A stretch of DNA of 64,000 nt from Polyangiaceae bacterium (GCA_020849655.1 JADLFU010000062.1:1-64000), one strand, 5' to 3'; shown: positions 8,536 to 16,591, numbered from the stretch's first letter. Numbers and translations: made by a program. Notes: a model not told the origin generated them from the sequence alone.

Positions 8536-8901
8536 TCAGGCGGAGAGCTTCTTCACCGCGGACACGAGCAGCTCCGGCTTGAACGGCTTGACCATCCACG
8601 CCTTCGCGCCGAGCGCCTTCGCGCGCGCGATGTACTCGGGCTGCCCCTCGGTCGTCAGCATCATCACGGGCGTGCTCGCGATGCTCGCCTCCGAGCGCAG
8701 GCGTTCGAGCATGTCGAGGCCGTTCAGCTTCGGCATGTTGACGTCGCAGATGACGAGCCGGACGGCGAGCCCGGCGAGCAGCTGCGTGAGCGCGTCCTCG
8801 CCGTCCGCCGCCTCGGCGACGTCGAACCCGGCGGGCTTGAGCGCGGCGATCACCTGCTGGCGCACGGTGATGGAGTCATCGACGATGAGAACCTTGGTCA
8901 T
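8536..8901 (-). CDS. CheY-like single-domain response regulator
   Basis: A 121-residue receiver domain only. It has the acidic pair D8-D9, the phospho-acceptor D53 (VICDVNMP), T83/T84 and K105 (MVKPF). It would take phosphate from the kinase at 9474-11078 and pass the signal by protein contact, since it has no output domain. The ATG at 8901 is preceded by GGGAGG with a 5-nt spacer. It lies 15 bp after the CheX-like gene, an arrangement expected of a phosphatase and its substrate. Confidence 0.92.
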   Translation of the reverse strand: MTKVLIVDDSITVRQQVIAALKPAGFDVAEAADGEDALTQLLAGLAVRLVICDVNMPKLNGLDMLERLRSEASIASTPVMMLTTEGQPEYIARAKALGAKAWMVKPFKPELLVSAVKKLSA

Positions 8902-8916
8902 GTGTGCCTCCCGCCG

Positions 8917-9477
8917 TCAGAACAGAATCAGCTCGCCCTCTTCGGCGGCGGCCTCGCCCTGCGGGCTGAGCTCGAGCTCGGGCTCGATGATGGCGTCGAA
9001 GAACACCCACAGCTCGTCCGAGCCCGACGTGAACACCAGCGGCTTCGTGCGCTTCGAGCTCGGCGTCGCGAACGCGAGCGCAGAGCCCGAGAGCGCCGTC
9101 GGCGTGCTCACGCGCAGCGACACGCCGAACGCGACGAGGCGGTTCTTGATGCGGCCGACGAGCTGGTTCGTGAGCTCCGACGCCCAGTCGCGCAGGTAGA
9201 GCCAGTCGCGCGCGACGTACGCGGAGACGGGCTGATCGCGCAGCGCCGCGGGTCGCGACCGCGCGAAGAGAGAGAACGTCGACGCGATCATCACCGTCCC
9301 GCGCATGCTCTCGGAGGTGAACCCGACCATCCCCGCGAGCTCCGCCTGCGCGGGCTGCGTGCCCGGGTGCGCGACCGGGGTGAGCGCGACGTCGGTCGCG
9401 GCGAACTGCGCCAGCGTCTGCTCGGCGATGATCCTGTCGAGGATCGTCCGCGGCGGGAGGGGGGCGGGCTCGCTCAC
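8917..9477 (-). CDS. CheX-like chemotaxis phosphatase-domain protein
   Basis: A 186-residue protein whose central part (about residues 55-165) resembles CheX/CheC-type CheY-P phosphatases. It has a hydrophobic beta pair (GTVMIASTFSLF) and the helix DWASELTNQLVGRIKNRL. In that helix, E101 and N104 fit the ExxN active-site motif that dephosphorylates CheY. The GTG start (9477) overlaps the kinase stop (GTGA). The acidic C-terminal tail ends EEGELILF. Function is assigned from the motif and from its place between kinase and CheY-like gene; sequence identity to CheX is probably low. Confidence 0.7.
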   Translation of the reverse strand: MSEPAPLPPRTILDRIIAEQTLAQFAATDVALTPVAHPGTQPAQAELAGMVGFTSESMRGTVMIASTFSLFARSRPAALRDQPVSAYVARDWLYLRDWASELTNQLVGRIKNRLVAFGVSLRVSTPTALSGSALAFATPSSKRTKPLVFTSGSDELWVFFDAIIEPELELSPQGEAAAEEGELILF

Positions 9478-11078
9478 TCCGCGCCTCCGAGCGCGATGTC
9501 AGGCTTCGGGATCGACATCGTGAACGTCGTCCCGAGGCCACGCTGGGTGCGAATCTCCATCTTGCCGTCTGCGGCGTCCACGGCCGACTTCACTGCGCTC
9601 ATTCCGATGCCGCGTCCAGAGATGTTCGTCGTGATCTCGGCGGTCGACAGGCCGTCGACGAAGATGAGCGACAGGCCGCGGTCCGGCATCGAGTCGATGA
9701 CCTCGCGGGTGGCGAACCCTCGCTCGATGGCGCGGGCGGCCACGCGCGGCAGATCGACCCCGGCGCCGTCGTCCTCGACCTCGACGACGTAGCTGTTCGC
9801 GTCGTCCCGCACGCGGAGCCGGACGCGCCCCGCGTGGGGCTTCGGCGCGCGCGCGTGAGGGGGCTCGACGCCGTGGTCGACGGCGTTGCGGATGAGGTGC
9901 GACAGCGACATCAAGACGGGGCGCATCGCCTCGACGTCGACGATGGTGTCCCCGCCGTCGATCGCGAAGTCGACCTCCTTGCCCAGGCGCTCGGCGAGGC
10001 GCGACGTGAAATCCTCGATCGGGCCGAGCAGGTGCGCCGCGGGCTTCGCGAGCACGCGCGCCGTCCAGTGGCGCAGCTCGGGCGAGCCGCCGCCCATCTT
10101 CGCGACGATGCCGCGGAACTGCGACATCTGGTCGGCGCTGACCTGGTAGCCGTGGTCGCCGATCTTCTCGTAGTCGATCTCGAGCACCCCGCGGTTGCGC
10201 GCGAGGAACAGCCGGAGCGCGTCGGAGATGTCGTCGATGTCGGCCGCCTCGATCGCCGGCTTCTCCTCGATCGCGTGGGTCAGCTCGACCAGCTCGACGA
10301 GGCCGTACGACGCGCCGTTGCCCTTGACGGTGTGCACGACGCGCCGGACGAGCGGCTGGTCGTCGACGGCGTCTCGCGCCGAGCGGAGGTGCTGCTGCGT
10401 CTCGACGAGGAAGGCCTGGAAGCTCTCCTTCTGGCGGAGGATGCCGACCAGCGTGCGGTTGTTGTTGCTCTCCCGCGTCGCCTCCTCGAGCGCCGAGATG
10501 TCCGAGATCGTGAAGAGCATCGCGCTGACGGCGCCGTCCTTGTCGCGGATGACGCTGCCCTCCGCGCGCAGGATCCTGCCGTCGGGGAGCGGGAACTTCT
10601 GCGGCATCTGCGCGAGCGACACCTCCTCGGGGAGCAGATCCTCGAACACCTGATCGCTGCTGAGCAGGAGGTGCTCGGCGGCGCGCGGGCCGAGCTTCAG
10701 CAGCTCGGTCAGGGGGCGGCCCTCGATCTCGCGCTCGTCGAACAGGGCGACGCACGAGCGCGTCGTCTCCGGCTGCACCACGAGCTCGCGGTTCACGACG
10801 AGGAACCCGAACGTCACGTTGTCGAGGATGGTCTTGATGGCCTCGGTGCGCCGCGCGACCTCGGCCTCCAGCGTCTCGGAGTACCTCGCGAGCTCCTTCG
10901 CGCGCACCTCGGCGAGCTCGCGCTTCTTCTTGTTCTCGGCCTCGCGGCGCTTCGCCGCCTCGACCTGCCGGTGCATCGACGAGGTGTCGCCGTTGTACAG
11001 CTCGACGACCTTCCGCTTCAGCACCTCGACGGTCTTCTCGGCGGCGACGGCGCGCCTGTGCAGCTCGTCGGCGCTCAT
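9474..11078 (-). CDS. PAS - HPt - HATPase histidine kinase (CheA-like, no CheW domain)
   Basis: A 534-residue cytoplasmic kinase. Residues 1-80 form a charged coiled coil. About 85-205 is a PAS-like sensor (LDNVTFGFLVVNRE...LFTISDIS). About 215-320 is an HPt domain with phospho-His H249 (VVHTVKGNGASYG), as in CheA P1. About 345-525 is a HATPase_c domain with N box HLIRNAVDHG, DDGAG and GRGIGMSAV. There is no CheA dimerisation P3 or CheW-like P5 domain, so it should not dock to chemoreceptor arrays. The start ATG 11078 overlaps the FIST stop (ATGA). The frame stays open far upstream of this start, but that part is antisense shadow of other genes. Confidence 0.88.
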   Translation of the reverse strand: MSADELHRRAVAAEKTVEVLKRKVVELYNGDTSSMHRQVEAAKRREAENKKKRELAEVRAKELARYSETLEAEVARRTEAIKTILDNVTFGFLVVNRELVVQPETTRSCVALFDEREIEGRPLTELLKLGPRAAEHLLLSSDQVFEDLLPEEVSLAQMPQKFPLPDGRILRAEGSVIRDKDGAVSAMLFTISDISALEEATRESNNNRTLVGILRQKESFQAFLVETQQHLRSARDAVDDQPLVRRVVHTVKGNGASYGLVELVELTHAIEEKPAIEAADIDDISDALRLFLARNRGVLEIDYEKIGDHGYQVSADQMSQFRGIVAKMGGGSPELRHWTARVLAKPAAHLLGPIEDFTSRLAERLGKEVDFAIDGGDTIVDVEAMRPVLMSLSHLIRNAVDHGVEPPHARAPKPHAGRVRLRVRDDANSYVVEVEDDGAGVDLPRVAARAIERGFATREVIDSMPDRGLSLIFVDGLSTAEITTNISGRGIGMSAVKSAVDAADGKMEIRTQRGLGTTFTMSIPKPDIALGGAE

Positions 11079-12223
11079 GACCGCGCCTCCCCGCGCAGGG
11101 CGACCCCGACCAGCGTCTGGTTGATGTGCAGGCCGTTCAGCTGCTCGCCGTAGGTGTCGAACCCGATCACGTGGTGGGCCGTCTTCGCGAGCACGCCGCC
11201 GAGATCGTCGAAGAGCGCGCGCTTGTCCGTCTCGAGCGCGCGCAGGATGCAGTTGCACGCGATGAAGAGGTCGGCCTTGCCCGCCGCGGCCGACACGCCC
11301 GCCAGATCGCGGTCGAGCGCGCCGACCATCTCCTCGTGCCCGCCGAGGCTGAGCACCATGCCCTCCTCGACGCCGCAGTAGAAGACGATCGAGCCGTCGG
11401 GCTCGACGCGCTGGATCGAGCGCACGTAGTTCTCGCCGCCGTAGACGAACAGGAGCGGGTTCATGAAGCAGACGTCGCCGTCGACCGCCTCGGGCGGGAG
11501 CCCGAGCGCGCGCGCGTAGGCCTCGAGCGCCGGGTAGCCGTCCATCTCGTAGACGCGGCGGTTCGCGACGTCGGCCTTCGTGATGACGACCGTGCGATCG
11601 GTCGCCTTGTAGTGCTGGTGCTTGATGATCTCGAAGGGGAGCGCGGACTGTGCGAGCACGAACACCGCGACGCCCGAGCGCGCCTGGCCGTCGACGAACA
11701 CGCGCGTCTGGCGGAACGCGAGGTCGTCGCCCGCGCTGCCGCCGAGCAGCGGCAGCCCGCCGAGCGCGTCGGCCATCGTCGAGACGACGTGCTCCTCCTT
11801 CATCGAGAGCCCGTCGATGAGCGTCAGGCAGAACGTGCGCGCCGGATCGGCCGCGTCGCGCGTCGTGCCGAGCTCCGCGAACAGCTCGTCGGCGACCCGC
11901 TCCGCCCGCGCCTCGTCGAGCGCGCCGAGATCTTCGACCGCGCGGACGGCCCAGCGCACCGACGGCGACACGATCGCGGAGACGACGACGGCGCCCTTCG
12001 CGTGGCCCGCGTCGAGGATCTCGCCGGCCGTCGTGCAGCCGACCACCTTCGCGCCCGGGAACCGCTCGGTGAGCGCCGTCGCGAGCGCGTCCGGATCCTG
12101 CGCGGTCGACGCGAACACGAGCACGAGATCGGGCGTGGCGCCCCCGAGCTGGAAGCCCGCCGTGGCCTCGGCGACGGCGCGGCGTGCGTCGGCGTCGTGG
12201 CTCTTGCCTTGGAATACCTGCAT
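11075..12223 (-). CDS. FIST-domain sensor protein
   Basis: A 382-residue protein with FIST_N (about residues 25-190; VVGCTTAGEI, LGGSAGDDL) followed by FIST_C (about 205-370; FMNPLLFVYGG, FIACNCILRAL, IGFDTYGEQLNGLHINQT). FIST is a cytoplasmic sensory domain proposed to bind small ligands such as amino acids. The adjoining kinase overlaps it by 4 bp, so the pair looks like a split sensor kinase. The ATG at 12223 has GAGGGAG upstream. An 18-bp perfect palindrome (12243-12260) lies 20 bp before the start, a possible operator or leader structure. Confidence 0.9.
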   Translation of the reverse strand: MQVFQGKSHDADARRAVAEATAGFQLGGATPDLVLVFASTAQDPDALATALTERFPGAKVVGCTTAGEILDAGHAKGAVVVSAIVSPSVRWAVRAVEDLGALDEARAERVADELFAELGTTRDAADPARTFCLTLIDGLSMKEEHVVSTMADALGGLPLLGGSAGDDLAFRQTRVFVDGQARSGVAVFVLAQSALPFEIIKHQHYKATDRTVVITKADVANRRVYEMDGYPALEAYARALGLPPEAVDGDVCFMNPLLFVYGGENYVRSIQRVEPDGSIVFYCGVEEGMVLSLGGHEEMVGALDRDLAGVSAAAGKADLFIACNCILRALETDKRALFDDLGGVLAKTAHHVIGFDTYGEQLNGLHINQTLVGVALRGEARS

Positions 12224-12348: not shown

Positions 12349-13686
12349 ATGTCGACGACGAGCGATCGGGCGCGCGAGGTCGCTCCTCCGTTTCGCGATC
12401 CGTCGTCGCTCGACGCCGCCGCGCGACCCCACCGGCTGGCGCTCGCGCGCGCGCTCGTGGGCGCGGAGGAGCTGCCCGTCGCGCTGCCGAGGTTCGGGCT
12501 GCGGCTCGACGACGTGCAGGTCGACGGCGCCGCGCTCTGCCTCGAGCTGTCCGCGGGCGCGCCGGTCGCGCGGGTGCGCCTCTCCCCGCGGCGGCGTGAG
12601 CTCGCGCCCCCCTCGAGCGAGGCGCCCGAGATCGGGATCGAGGTGAGGCCGGGAGGGGAGCGGCACGCGGCGGCGCTCGAGGCCATCCGCGCGAGGCTCG
12701 CGCGCGCGATCACGCCGGCGCGCTGGGAGGCCGCGCGGCCGCACTTCGACGCGCTGCGCGCGCTGCCGCTCGACGTCCCGATGGCGTACTTCCGGCAGCT
12801 CGTGTCCGGCGTCGGCGGGCGCGAGGGGCTCGTCCGCACCGGCTTCGCCTGCAACCAGGACTGCGGCATGTGCTGGCAGTCCCGCGCGTGGAGCGGGCCC
12901 GGCGCGGCGCAGATCCTGACGTGGGTGGAGGATCTGCGGCGCGCGGGCGCCACGCGCCTGATCCTCTCGGGCGGCGAGCCGACGCTCGACGCCGCGCTGC
13001 CCGAGTACGTGGCGCGGGCGCGCGCGCTCGGGTTCGCCGCCGTCACGCTCGAGACGAACGCCGTGCAGCTCGCGAAGCCCGAGCACGCGGCGCGCCTCGC
13101 CGCCGCCGGCCTGACGGACGCCTTCGTCTCGCTGCACGCGGCCGACGCGGCGATCTCGGACGCCATCACCCGCGCCCGCGGGACGCACGCGCGGACGCTC
13201 GCCGGCGTCGACGCGCTGCTCGACGCGGGTGTCACCGTCACGCTGAACGCCGTGATGACCGCCGAGGGGCTCCTCCGCCTCGACGAGCTCCCCGCGCTCG
13301 TCCACGCGCGGTTCGGCGGGCGCGAGGGGCTGCGTGGGCTGATGGTGTCGCTGCCGACCGATCCGTTCGACGGCGCGCTCCGCGATCGCGTGCTGCCCGA
13401 TCCGGCGATCGTCCGCGAGGTGCTGCCGCGCACGATCGAGCGCGCGCTCTCGCTCGGCGTCCCCGTGCTCGGGCTCGACGGCCCGTGCGGGCCGCCGCTC
13501 TGCGCGTTCGGCGCCGATCCGCGGGTGGCGCGGCTCGAGCCCCTCGGGGAGGCGCTGGAGTTCCGCGTGCACCCGCCGGCGTGCGACCGGTGCGCGGTGA
13601 GGTCGGCGTGCTTCGGCGTGCGCCGCGAGCAGCTCGCGCGCTTCGGCGACGCGTGCACGGCGCCGCTCGCCGCGCGGCCGCGCTGA
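12349..13686 (+). CDS. Radical SAM enzyme, unassigned subfamily
   Basis: A 445-residue protein. The radical SAM cluster motif is CNQDCGMC (C168, C172, C175; CX3CX2C), followed by LILSGGEPTLD (SAM-binding GGE) and a TIM-barrel pattern. A 160-residue N-terminal region has no recognised domain. Near the C-terminus four Cys (CDRCAVRSAC plus an upstream CGPPLC) could hold an auxiliary Fe-S cluster, as in SPASM-like enzymes. No precursor peptide gene is visible nearby. The -10 TAGAGT at 12336-12341 lies 7 nt from the ATG, with no Shine-Dalgarno. Function unknown. Confidence 0.82.
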   Translation: MSTTSDRAREVAPPFRDPSSLDAAARPHRLALARALVGAEELPVALPRFGLRLDDVQVDGAALCLELSAGAPVARVRLSPRRRELAPPSSEAPEIGIEVRPGGERHAAALEAIRARLARAITPARWEAARPHFDALRALPLDVPMAYFRQLVSGVGGREGLVRTGFACNQDCGMCWQSRAWSGPGAAQILTWVEDLRRAGATRLILSGGEPTLDAALPEYVARARALGFAAVTLETNAVQLAKPEHAARLAAAGLTDAFVSLHAADAAISDAITRARGTHARTLAGVDALLDAGVTVTLNAVMTAEGLLRLDELPALVHARFGGREGLRGLMVSLPTDPFDGALRDRVLPDPAIVREVLPRTIERALSLGVPVLGLDGPCGPPLCAFGADPRVARLEPLGEALEFRVHPPACDRCAVRSACFGVRREQLARFGDACTAPLAARPR

Positions 13687-13728: not shown

Positions 13729-15096
13729 TCAGGGCGCAGCGGGCCCGACCAGGCGCGCGCCGAGCAGCGTCAGATCGTCGTACGGAGGCGTCGGGCCCGC
13801 CCAGATGGCGACGCGGTGGCACACGAGGTTGCCCGCGCCGCGACCGAGCCTCGTCGCCTCGAGCAGCGCTGCGGTGAGCCGCGCCTCGCCGAAGGGCTCG
13901 CCGGTGGGGCTCGGCTGCTCGACGAGCCCGTCGGTGTAGGCGTACACGCGCGCGCCCGGCTGCAGCTCGCGCTCCCCCGTGAGGAACGTCGCGCCCTCGT
14001 CGAGCCCCACGAACGCGCCGCCCGACGGCAGCTCGGTCGCGCTCGTGCCCTCGATCAAGACCAGCGGCGGGTGCGCGGCCGTCGCCCACCGCAGCCCGCG
14101 CACGCGCGCGTCGAGGTCGAAGCAGACGGCGGTGAAATGCAGCCCGAGCTGGCCGAAGGTGCCCGCGAAGCTGCGGTTCATCGTCGAGAGCGCCTCCTCG
14201 GGCGTCCGCGCGGCGCGCTTGCAGAGCTCGTACTGGCTCTTGATGAACATCGTCGTCAGCGCCGCCGGCACGCCGTGGCCGGGCGCGTCGGCGAGGAACA
14301 CGCGCACCCGGCCCTCCTCGAGCTCGAACACGTCGTACAGATCGCCGCCCACCATCTCCGCGGGCTGGTAGGTCACCTCGAGCGAGAGCCCCGCGGTGCG
14401 CACCGCCTCGGGCAGCAGGCTCTGCTGGAAGTCACGCGCGCGCAGGATGTCCTGCGTGATGACGCCGTCGCGCGCCTCGAGCGCCCGCAGCGCCTCCAGC
14501 AGCTCGCGCTCCTGGCGCCGGATGCGCACGAGGTTGCGCACGCGCGAGCGCAGCTCCGCCACGTGCACGGGCTTGACGAGGAAGTCGTCCGCGCCGCGGT
14601 CGAGCGCTGCCAGCTTCTGCCGCAGATCGTGCTTGTGCGACAAGAGCACGACCGGCGTGCGGGCGAGCGGCCCCGGATCCGATTTGACGGCCGCGCAGAG
14701 CTCGTGGCCGTTGAGATCGCCGAGCTCCATGTCGGCGACGATCAGATCGGGGACGACGCTGCGGCCGATCAGGAGCCCCTCGCCGGCGGTGCTCGCGGAG
14801 AGCACGCGGTAGCGGCGGCCGAGGACGCGCTCGAGCTGGTCGCGCCGCTTCTTCGCGGCGTCGATCACGAGCACGGTCACGTCGTCGCCGAGCCCGACGT
14901 AGCGCATCGACGACGACGGGACGTCGAACATGCTCTCCTCGACGGCCAGCGAGTCGAGGTCGGGCGGCTCGTAGCTCGGCACCGACGCGGACAGCAGATC
15001 CATGCCCTCGAGCATCAGCGACGGTCGGTTCGAGTCGAGCTCGTACGACGGCGGGACGCTGTCCTCGCCCTCTGGTTCGCCCGGCCCGGGAGGCAT
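13729..15096 (-). CDS. Response regulator with PP2C-type (SpoIIE/RsbU) phosphatase output
   Basis: A 455-residue two-domain regulator. An acidic unstructured N-terminus of about 70 residues precedes a receiver domain (D79; phospho-acceptor D122 in VADMELGDLNG; KPVHVAE). A coiled linker and a SpoIIE/PP2C phosphatase domain follow (DFQQSLLPEAV, GGDLYDVF, LADAPGHGVPAA, YTDGLVE, DDLTLL), carrying the metal-binding Asp residues. Such proteins dephosphorylate anti-anti-sigma factors, but no STAS or RsbW partner is in the window. I choose ATG 15096 because TATTCT (15112-15107) sits 10 nt before it. Longer starts would overlap the divergent gltX start. Confidence 0.88.
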   Translation of the reverse strand: MPPGPGEPEGEDSVPPSYELDSNRPSLMLEGMDLLSASVPSYEPPDLDSLAVEESMFDVPSSSMRYVGLGDDVTVLVIDAAKKRRDQLERVLGRRYRVLSASTAGEGLLIGRSVVPDLIVADMELGDLNGHELCAAVKSDPGPLARTPVVLLSHKHDLRQKLAALDRGADDFLVKPVHVAELRSRVRNLVRIRRQERELLEALRALEARDGVITQDILRARDFQQSLLPEAVRTAGLSLEVTYQPAEMVGGDLYDVFELEEGRVRVFLADAPGHGVPAALTTMFIKSQYELCKRAARTPEEALSTMNRSFAGTFGQLGLHFTAVCFDLDARVRGLRWATAAHPPLVLIEGTSATELPSGGAFVGLDEGATFLTGERELQPGARVYAYTDGLVEQPSPTGEPFGEARLTAALLEATRLGRGAGNLVCHRVAIWAGPTPPYDDLTLLGARLVGPAAP

Positions 15097-15106
15097 GAGG
15101 CACGGG

Positions 15107-15142
15107 AGAATACAGCCTTCGGCGGCGATGGTGTGGTAATCC
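15107..15142. promoter_or_regulatory. Back-to-back -10 elements for the PP2C regulator and gltX
   Basis: On the minus strand TATTCT at 15112-15107, 10 nt from the regulator ATG. On the plus strand extended -10 TGGTAATCC with TAATCC at 15137-15142, 12 nt from the gltX ATG. The two genes share a 58-bp intergenic region. Confidence 0.45.
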
Positions 15143-15154
15143 GCCGCGCGATCC

Positions 15155-16591
15155 ATGTCTGTCCGCGTCAGGTTCGCGCCGTCGCCCACCGGCTACCTCC
15201 ACATCGGCGGGGCCCGCACCGCGCTCTTCAACTGGCTGTACGCGCGGCGGCACGGCGGCGTCTTCGTGCTGCGCGTCGAGGACACCGACCAGGCCCGCAG
15301 CACCGAGGAGAGCTACCGCGCGATCATCGACTCGATGAGGTGGCTCGGGCTCGACTGGGACGAGGGCCCCGAGGTCGGCGGCCCGCACGGCCCGTACACC
15401 CAGATGGAGCGGCTCGCCTCGTACGCGCAGGCGGCCGACCGCCTCGTCGACGAGGGCAAGGCCTACCGCTGCTACGCGACCAAGGACGAGCTCGACGCGC
15501 TCCGCAGGGACGCCGAGCGCCAGAAGAAGCAGTTCTTCTACCCGCACCTCTGGCGCGACAAGACCTCGAAGGACTGGATCGCGGGCGCGCCGTACGTGAT
15601 CAGGTTCAAGTCGCCGCTCTCGGGCGAGACGTCGTTCGACGACGAGGTGTTCGGGCGCATCACGACGCCGAACGATCACCTCCAGGACTTCGTGCTGCTC
15701 CGCAGCGACGGCGTGCCGCTCTACAACTTCGGCGCGGTCGTCGACGACGTGACGATGAAGATCACGCTCGTCGCGCGCGGCCGCGACCACGTCGTCAACA
15801 CGCCGCAGCAGGTGCTCCTGTACGAGGCGCTCGGCGCCCCCGCGCCGCGGTTCGCGCACCTGCCGATGATGCTCGCGCCCGACGGCAAGAAGCTCTCGAA
15901 GCGCGAGGCGGAGCGCTACGACATCCCGGTCAGCGTCACCGCCTACCGCGACCGCGGGTTCTCGCCCGACGGCCTCTTGAACTACCTCGTGCGCTTCGGG
16001 TGGAGCCACGGCGACCAGGAGACGTTCACGCGCCGCGAGATGATAGACTTGTTTGATTTCTCCGGGGCCTCGCGCGCGGACGGCAAGTTCGACATGAAGA
16101 AATGCCTCGCGATCAACCACAAGATCTCGAAGGACGAGCGCACGACGAGCCGCCACGAGTACGCGCGGCGCGCGCGGCCGTTCGTCGAGGCGCGCGGGCT
16201 CGCGCCGGACGACGCGCACCTCGGGCGGGCGCTCGACGTCGTGCGCGAGCGCGCGCGCACCTTCGTGGAGGCGGCCGACGCGGTCGACTACTTCTTCCGC
16301 GAGCCCGTGGCGCGCGATCCTGTGGCCGTGAAGAGCGCGCTCGTCCCTGCGGCCGCGCCGGTGCTCGCGAGGCTGCGAGCCGAGGTGGCGAAGCTGGACG
16401 CGCTCGATCCCGAGACGCTCCACGCGGCGCTCGACGCCACGTTCGACTGGAAGCAGGCGGGCCCGGCCGCGCGCGTCGCGCTCACCGGGCGCGCGGCGAG
16501 CCCCGGCCTGCACGAGGTGATGAGCGCGCTCGGCAAGGCCACCGTCCTCGCGCGGCTCGACGAGGCGATCGCGATCGCAAGCGCCGGGTGA
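15155..16591 (+). CDS. gltX: Glutamyl-tRNA synthetase
   Basis: A 478-residue class I aminoacyl-tRNA synthetase that charges tRNA-Glu. It has the HIGH-type motif SPTGYLHIGGARTALFNW near the N-terminus, the Glu-binding EDTDQARS, and the KMSKS-type DGKKLSKREA. The C-terminal anticodon-binding helical domain follows. Length is normal. The ATG at 15155 follows an extended -10 by 12 nt. It heads a coupled operon: the next start (GTG 16588) overlaps its stop, and further genes follow with gaps of 15-32 bp or 4-bp overlaps. Confidence 0.96.
   Translation: MSVRVRFAPSPTGYLHIGGARTALFNWLYARRHGGVFVLRVEDTDQARSTEESYRAIIDSMRWLGLDWDEGPEVGGPHGPYTQMERLASYAQAADRLVDEGKAYRCYATKDELDALRRDAERQKKQFFYPHLWRDKTSKDWIAGAPYVIRFKSPLSGETSFDDEVFGRITTPNDHLQDFVLLRSDGVPLYNFGAVVDDVTMKITLVARGRDHVVNTPQQVLLYEALGAPAPRFAHLPMMLAPDGKKLSKREAERYDIPVSVTAYRDRGFSPDGLLNYLVRFGWSHGDQETFTRREMIDLFDFSGASRADGKFDMKKCLAINHKISKDERTTSRHEYARRARPFVEARGLAPDDAHLGRALDVVRERARTFVEAADAVDYFFREPVARDPVAVKSALVPAAAPVLARLRAEVAKLDALDPETLHAALDATFDWKQAGPAARVALTGRAASPGLHEVMSALGKATVLARLDEAIAIASAG

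Follow-up and report, generated by a model that had tools for sequence, protein, structure and literature searches.

A NosP-like FIST sensor shares an operon with a CheA-like kinase, CheX and CheY in a Polyangiaceae bacterium

Four genes lie in close succession on the minus strand of a 64,000-nucleotide stretch of a Polyangiaceae genome (GCA_020849655.1, JADLFU010000062.1:1-64000; hereafter the window). They encode a FIST protein (11075-12223; 382 aa, ATG start), a histidine kinase (9474-11078; 534 aa, ATG start), the phosphatase CheX (8917-9477; 186 aa, GTG start) and the receiver protein CheY (8536-8901; 121 aa, ATG start). The kinase gene overlaps the FIST stop by 4 bp, the CheX gene overlaps the kinase stop by another 4 bp, and the CheY gene follows 15 bp 3' of CheX. 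The analysis confirms the four-gene operon (8536-12223) that the original prediction, made from the DNA alone, had drawn, and all four proteins score over their Pfam cut-offs. We find the conserved combination of a NosP-like sensor, a CheA-derived kinase and CheX/CheY to be real and moderately surprising. All parts of these genes located below are on the same minus strand.

The first gene encodes a NosP-like sensor with FIST_N and FIST_C domains (Pfam FIST, 5e-45; FIST_C, 2.5e-19). The NCBIfam NosP equivalog model NF041558 matches it at full length (residues 8-376; 1.7e-106) with 356.4 bits, below the curated cut-off of 450, and judged by this alignment the protein is a full-length NosP relative. 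Azospirillum proteins named NosP are among its best plasmid-record matches (38–39% identity), and a NahK/ErcS kinase follows NosP at both of the Azospirillum loci that we read. H204, C325 and H366 are common to Polyangia FISTs and PGAP-named NosPs in an alignment; a sequence search of the PDB found no FIST structure. A maximum-likelihood tree built from 40 FISTs places every one of the 20 that are linked to HPt-type kinases in one clade (support 100/99), separate from FISTs linked to HisKA kinases, and the window FIST does not group with NahK-paired NosPs. The same genome carries a second FIST-family gene outside the operon (G000:C112:17283-17801).

The partner is a soluble CheA-like histidine kinase that comprises an N-terminal module, a PAS-like domain, an HPt (P1-like) domain, a probable short P3-like stretch and a CheA-type P4 ATP-binding domain. 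Pfam recognizes the HPt domain (10179-10430; Hpt, 6.9e-9), with the phospho-acceptor His249 in the motif HTVKGN, and the ATPase (HATPase_c, 6e-15). H249, the N box and the G boxes are invariant across 14 aligned kinase sequences. The P4 domain (about residues 346–530; 9489-10043) matches CheA-type profiles at 1.9e-52, and its model superimposes on the CheA P4 structure 8oz9 with Z 23.1 (170 aa, root-mean-square deviation (rmsd) 2.0). No Pfam match to PAS was obtained in the kinase, and the domain at about residues 86–195 (10494-10823) is called PAS-like from the secondary structure of the AlphaFold2 model and partial Foldseek matches to LOV-histidine kinases.

The original prediction had this kinase lacking both P3 and P5. 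The loss of P5 stands: the protein stops after P4, and Pfam detects no CheW domain. Complete loss of P3 probably does not. Although Pfam gives no H-kinase_dim match in the operon kinase, the protein probably has a P3-like stretch of reduced length, because sequence-profile and structure comparisons both reach into CheA P3; the kinase model matches the CheA P3P4 fragment 4xiv with Z 22.1 (211 aa, rmsd 2.8), with low confidence at residues 310–340.

CheX is identified by a Pfam match (9.2e-8; 32.5 bits, cut-off 27) and by an AlphaFold2 model with a predicted local distance difference test score (pLDDT) of 83. The model resembles solved CheX proteins overall (Z 15–17 over about 145–150 residues) and 6vpw in particular (Z 17.4, 146 aa, rmsd 2.6). 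The phosphatase fold and ExxN motif on which the original prediction hung are thus both present in the modeled protein. The catalytic motif DWASELTNQLVG (9154-9189) contains E101 and N104, which, together with D97, W98 and G108, are invariant in nine aligned CheX proteins, as is every residue spelled out in DWxxELxN. Dephosphorylation of CheY~P by this protein is a putative activity.

Beyond the fold, CheX ends in a tail, EGELILF (8920-8940), that follows a conserved -G(E/D)xxxF pattern and is disordered in the AlphaFold2 model (pLDDT under 50). Among 27 distinct CheX ends, 26 finish in Phe, and 25 of these have the acidic residue of the pattern. Because the tail is kept whatever the kinase, its partner is most likely CheY. 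The C-terminus of CheZ contacts CheY, which is comparable to the role we suggest here. CheY itself is, as predicted, a stand-alone receiver (Response_reg, 4.3e-26): its 121 residues include no output domain, and the acidic pocket (D8/D9), phospho-Asp (D53), Thr (T83) and Lys (K105) are intact; in an alignment, the pocket, Thr and Lys are invariant.

The setting of the operon also agrees with the claim that no chemoreceptor (MCP) or CheW lies nearby. A family search of the operon contig found no CheW or MCP match; CheR and CheB were outside that search. Elsewhere in the source genome (6.56 Mb, 307 contigs, 97% complete), all three CheW matches are on contig 16, one of them being the P5 domain of a CheA, and the two MCP matches are on contigs 207 and 38. 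With its Hpt, H-kinase_dim, HATPase_c and CheW domains this CheA is an ordinary one, and the cell thus has a CheA-type kinase besides that of the operon. CheX occurs once in the genome, and no CheC was detected there.

Among 289 genomes of the class, 15 have the FIST-kinase pairing, as do four genomes of other classes. When we read the flanks of FIST genes in 377 sampled genomes of the phylum, most had one of two kinase types as neighbor, either NahK-like HisKA kinases or HPt/CheA-like kinases of the window type. CheX and CheY accompany the FIST-kinase pair at 8 of 15 loci, in the order kinase-CheX-CheY in the window and at three others (L032, L034, L044), as CheY-CheX upstream of the pair at L035, L037 and L038, and divergently at L033. 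What is conserved is therefore the direct FIST-kinase pairing, within a receptor-less module whose kinase, phosphatase and receiver motifs are intact; the order of the four genes is variable. A tree of CheX proteins is compatible with one or with several entries of CheX into FIST loci. At L037 the FIST-linked kinase gene is directly followed, on its own strand, by a hemerythrin-domain gene (L037:6230-6625).

The two kinds of FIST locus differ in how often CheX is found there. CheX adjoins 7 of 17 non-redundant HPt-type FIST loci and none of 14 HisKA-type loci (p = 0.009, for loci that are not phylogenetically independent). A HisKA kinase can dephosphorylate its own regulator, whereas one of the CheA type normally relies on a separate phosphatase, and the observed bias fits this difference.

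Kinases of this family also occur without FIST. A scan of named genomes was dominated by ordinary CheAs and returned one Polyangiaceae relative, which has no FIST. The CheX-CheY pair follows non-FIST HPt kinases at L024, L180, L185 and L187. At the last three, the gene before the kinase gene encodes a small CxC protein, probably anchored in the membrane, whose DUF6436 match is weak at best. The kinases of L180, L183, L185 and L187 have a hydrophobic, probably membrane-spanning N-terminal region, and the small CxC protein that precedes them is possibly a redox input.

FIST-linked kinases have an N-terminus of their own. Residues 1–60 of the window kinase (10899-11078) form a helical module, and a profile of this segment matches every FIST-adjacent HPt-type kinase with a readable N-terminus but misses all of about two dozen related HPt kinases that have no FIST. 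Among the kinases matched are four from outside the class that were absent from profile building (L204, L223, L224, L225). Searched class-wide in 317 genomes, the module is present in 17, 14 of which had supplied sequences to the profile, and is FIST-adjacent every time. This module, seen only in FIST-adjacent kinases, is new here.

A natural rearrangement points to what the module does. In one genome (G589), the module and the domain that follows it are fused to a HisKA-like core that ends in HATPase_c, with no Hpt match, and this chimeric kinase adjoins two tandem FISTs that both belong to the HPt-linked FIST clade. Sensor and N-terminus thus stayed paired while the catalytic core changed, which points to the module of about 60 residues as a FIST docking segment; we take this as evidence rather than proof. 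A 61-codon remnant of a kinase N-terminus lies between the two FIST genes, with the chimeric kinase next (L254:264-4405). Comparison of the module with the N-termini of HisKA-type NosP kinases gave an hhalign score of 19.4, with 1 of 60 column shuffles scoring higher; the mean hidden Markov model score was 4.7 bits against 0.6 when shuffled, and the best shuffle reached 18.8. These values are suggestive of homology, which we do not claim.

NosPs use their FIST domain to bind heme and are often encoded with a kinase whose autophosphorylation they control (PMC12570481, PMC8846402, PMC11237717). Because NosPs are known to bind and control adjacent kinases, a FIST-controlled kinase is not the undescribed arrangement that it was first taken to be but that of NosP-NahK/NosK. 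The difference from known FIST systems is the partner kinase. In NosP-NahK/NosK-NarR/NosR, a FIST heme/NO (nitric oxide) sensor acts with a HisKA kinase and a response regulator that is a cyclic di-GMP enzyme, whereas here the core is CheA-like HPt/P4, and a stand-alone CheY accompanied by CheX would provide the output. The window FIST is 35–40% identical to the plasmid-borne NosPs/FISTs with which it was aligned, although it falls in a separate clade and under the NosP cut-off.

Three other systems share parts of this design. CheA chemosensory pathways have the same HPt-to-CheY phosphotransfer logic, CheA-type P4 and CheX/CheY pair, but P1, P3, P4 and P5 are present in all surveyed CheAs (PMC10782961), while this operon is devoid of P5, CheW and chemoreceptor. 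The Dif system of Myxococcus xanthus (DifE/DifD/DifG), together with EpsW, likewise combines a chemosensory-type kinase, single-domain receivers and a CheC-class phosphatase, with a non-motility output (PMC4671073). Dif is receptor-based; here the FIST protein would stand in for the receptor. Finally, Legionella Hnox2-Lpg2458-Lpg2457 groups the gene of a heme NO sensor with those of a kinase and a single-domain regulator like CheY (PMC11237717, PMC8738867), but its sensor is an H-NOX protein, no CheX is mentioned, and the pathway is itself hypothetical.

Gene order, conserved motifs, folds and the co-inheritance of sensor and kinase are directly observed. From them we consider it fairly probable that a NosP-like FIST gates a CheA-like kinase which passes phosphate to CheY, with CheX as the reset and neither chemoreceptor nor CheW involved. 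Ligand, direction of control, phosphotransfer, dephosphorylation and target are the parts of this scheme that we infer. The FIST protein would bind the soluble kinase, with the N-terminal helical module as the most likely contact, and the ligand state of the FIST would set how fast the CheA-type P4 domain phosphorylates His249. Phosphate would then pass from His249 to Asp53 of CheY, and CheX would use the E-x-x-N motif to hydrolyze CheY~P. The pathway would need this extra enzyme because, in contrast to a HisKA kinase, one of the CheA type does not normally dephosphorylate the regulator. CheY~P may act by binding a target protein; a precedent for such direct output is the Myxococcus single-domain regulator EpsW, which is reported to activate a glycosyl transferase (PMC12802240).

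As homologous NosPs bind heme and respond to NO, the ligand of the window FIST is probably heme/NO. There is nonetheless a substantial chance that it responds to heme, to redox state or to some other ligand instead of NO, which would leave the wiring unchanged. The window FIST sits in a clade outside the HisKA-linked NosPs and misses the NosP cut-off, Burkholderia thailandensis NosP is reported to be heme-responsive (PMC13259868), and the redox-like CxC partner on the related chassis suggests that such kinases take various inputs. Conservation of H204, C325 and H366 between the window FIST and PGAP-named NosPs speaks for NO, however, and the hemerythrin gene 3' of the L037 kinase fits NO/O2 biology.

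Several observations weigh against CheY as the output and, more broadly, against the scheme proposed above. CheX/CheY are missing near about half of the FIST-kinase loci, which means that the kinase may have further targets or may first have had another one; the FIST score falls short of the NosP equivalog threshold; and the CheX bias is drawn from HPt-linked FISTs that form one clade, which is why its loci are not independent. The main rival, which we think unlikely, is that CheY and CheX form a phosphate sink that tunes the kinase, while the true output is a response regulator encoded elsewhere. DifD (CheY) and DifG (a CheC phosphatase) drain DifE in this way in M. xanthus (PMC4671073). Moreover, effector-bearing regulators lie beside related non-FIST kinases (REC-GGDEF at L173, REC-sigma54 at L183), a PP2C (SpoIIE phosphatase) gene directly follows CheY-CheX at L033, and the CheX-CheY pair is found beside kinases of several types, as well as where no kinase of this family was detected in the stretch read. 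Yet CheY is the only receiver of the window operon, and a sink as such could do without a dedicated phosphatase encoded beside it. The nearest other receiver, a REC-SpoIIE protein, is encoded beyond a gene on the opposite strand, and no copy was detected at the same-genus locus L032.

It is very unlikely that CheY and CheX serve the ordinary chemosensory cluster on contig 16 and not the adjacent kinase: a complete CheA with P5 is present there, and a single CheX in a genome with no detected CheC could serve both, but the operon is tightly coupled by 4-bp overlaps, and the association of HPt kinase, CheX and CheY recurs in many genomes, including those with non-FIST kinases.

If a FIST protein does gate this kinase, CheA-type catalysis can be controlled directly by a soluble sensor, and receptor arrays are dispensable for it. 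The operon would then offer a small system that can be reconstituted to study the switching of a P1/P4 kinase. It would also pinpoint a segment where FIST/NosP proteins may dock; how these proteins bind ligand and propagate the signal has been described as little known (PMC8846402), and the core swap in G589 is a ready-made natural test case for this idea. More tentatively, the loci may represent CheA-derived kinases that have left the receptor array, exchanging P5, CheW and receptor input for interchangeable soluble or membrane inputs (FIST on the N-terminal module, or a membrane domain with a CxC partner), with a CheZ-like CheX tail tethering CheY for reset.

Two neighbors of the operon deserve mention. 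The REC-SpoIIE phosphatase protein (window 13729-15189, minus strand) was considered as an output and rejected because it is not conserved, no copy having been detected in the 12 kb of L032. A radical-SAM-like gene (window 12349-13686, plus strand) is divergent from the FIST gene across a shared 125-bp intergenic region; this gene and the downstream coaBC adjoin the operon in the same genus only.

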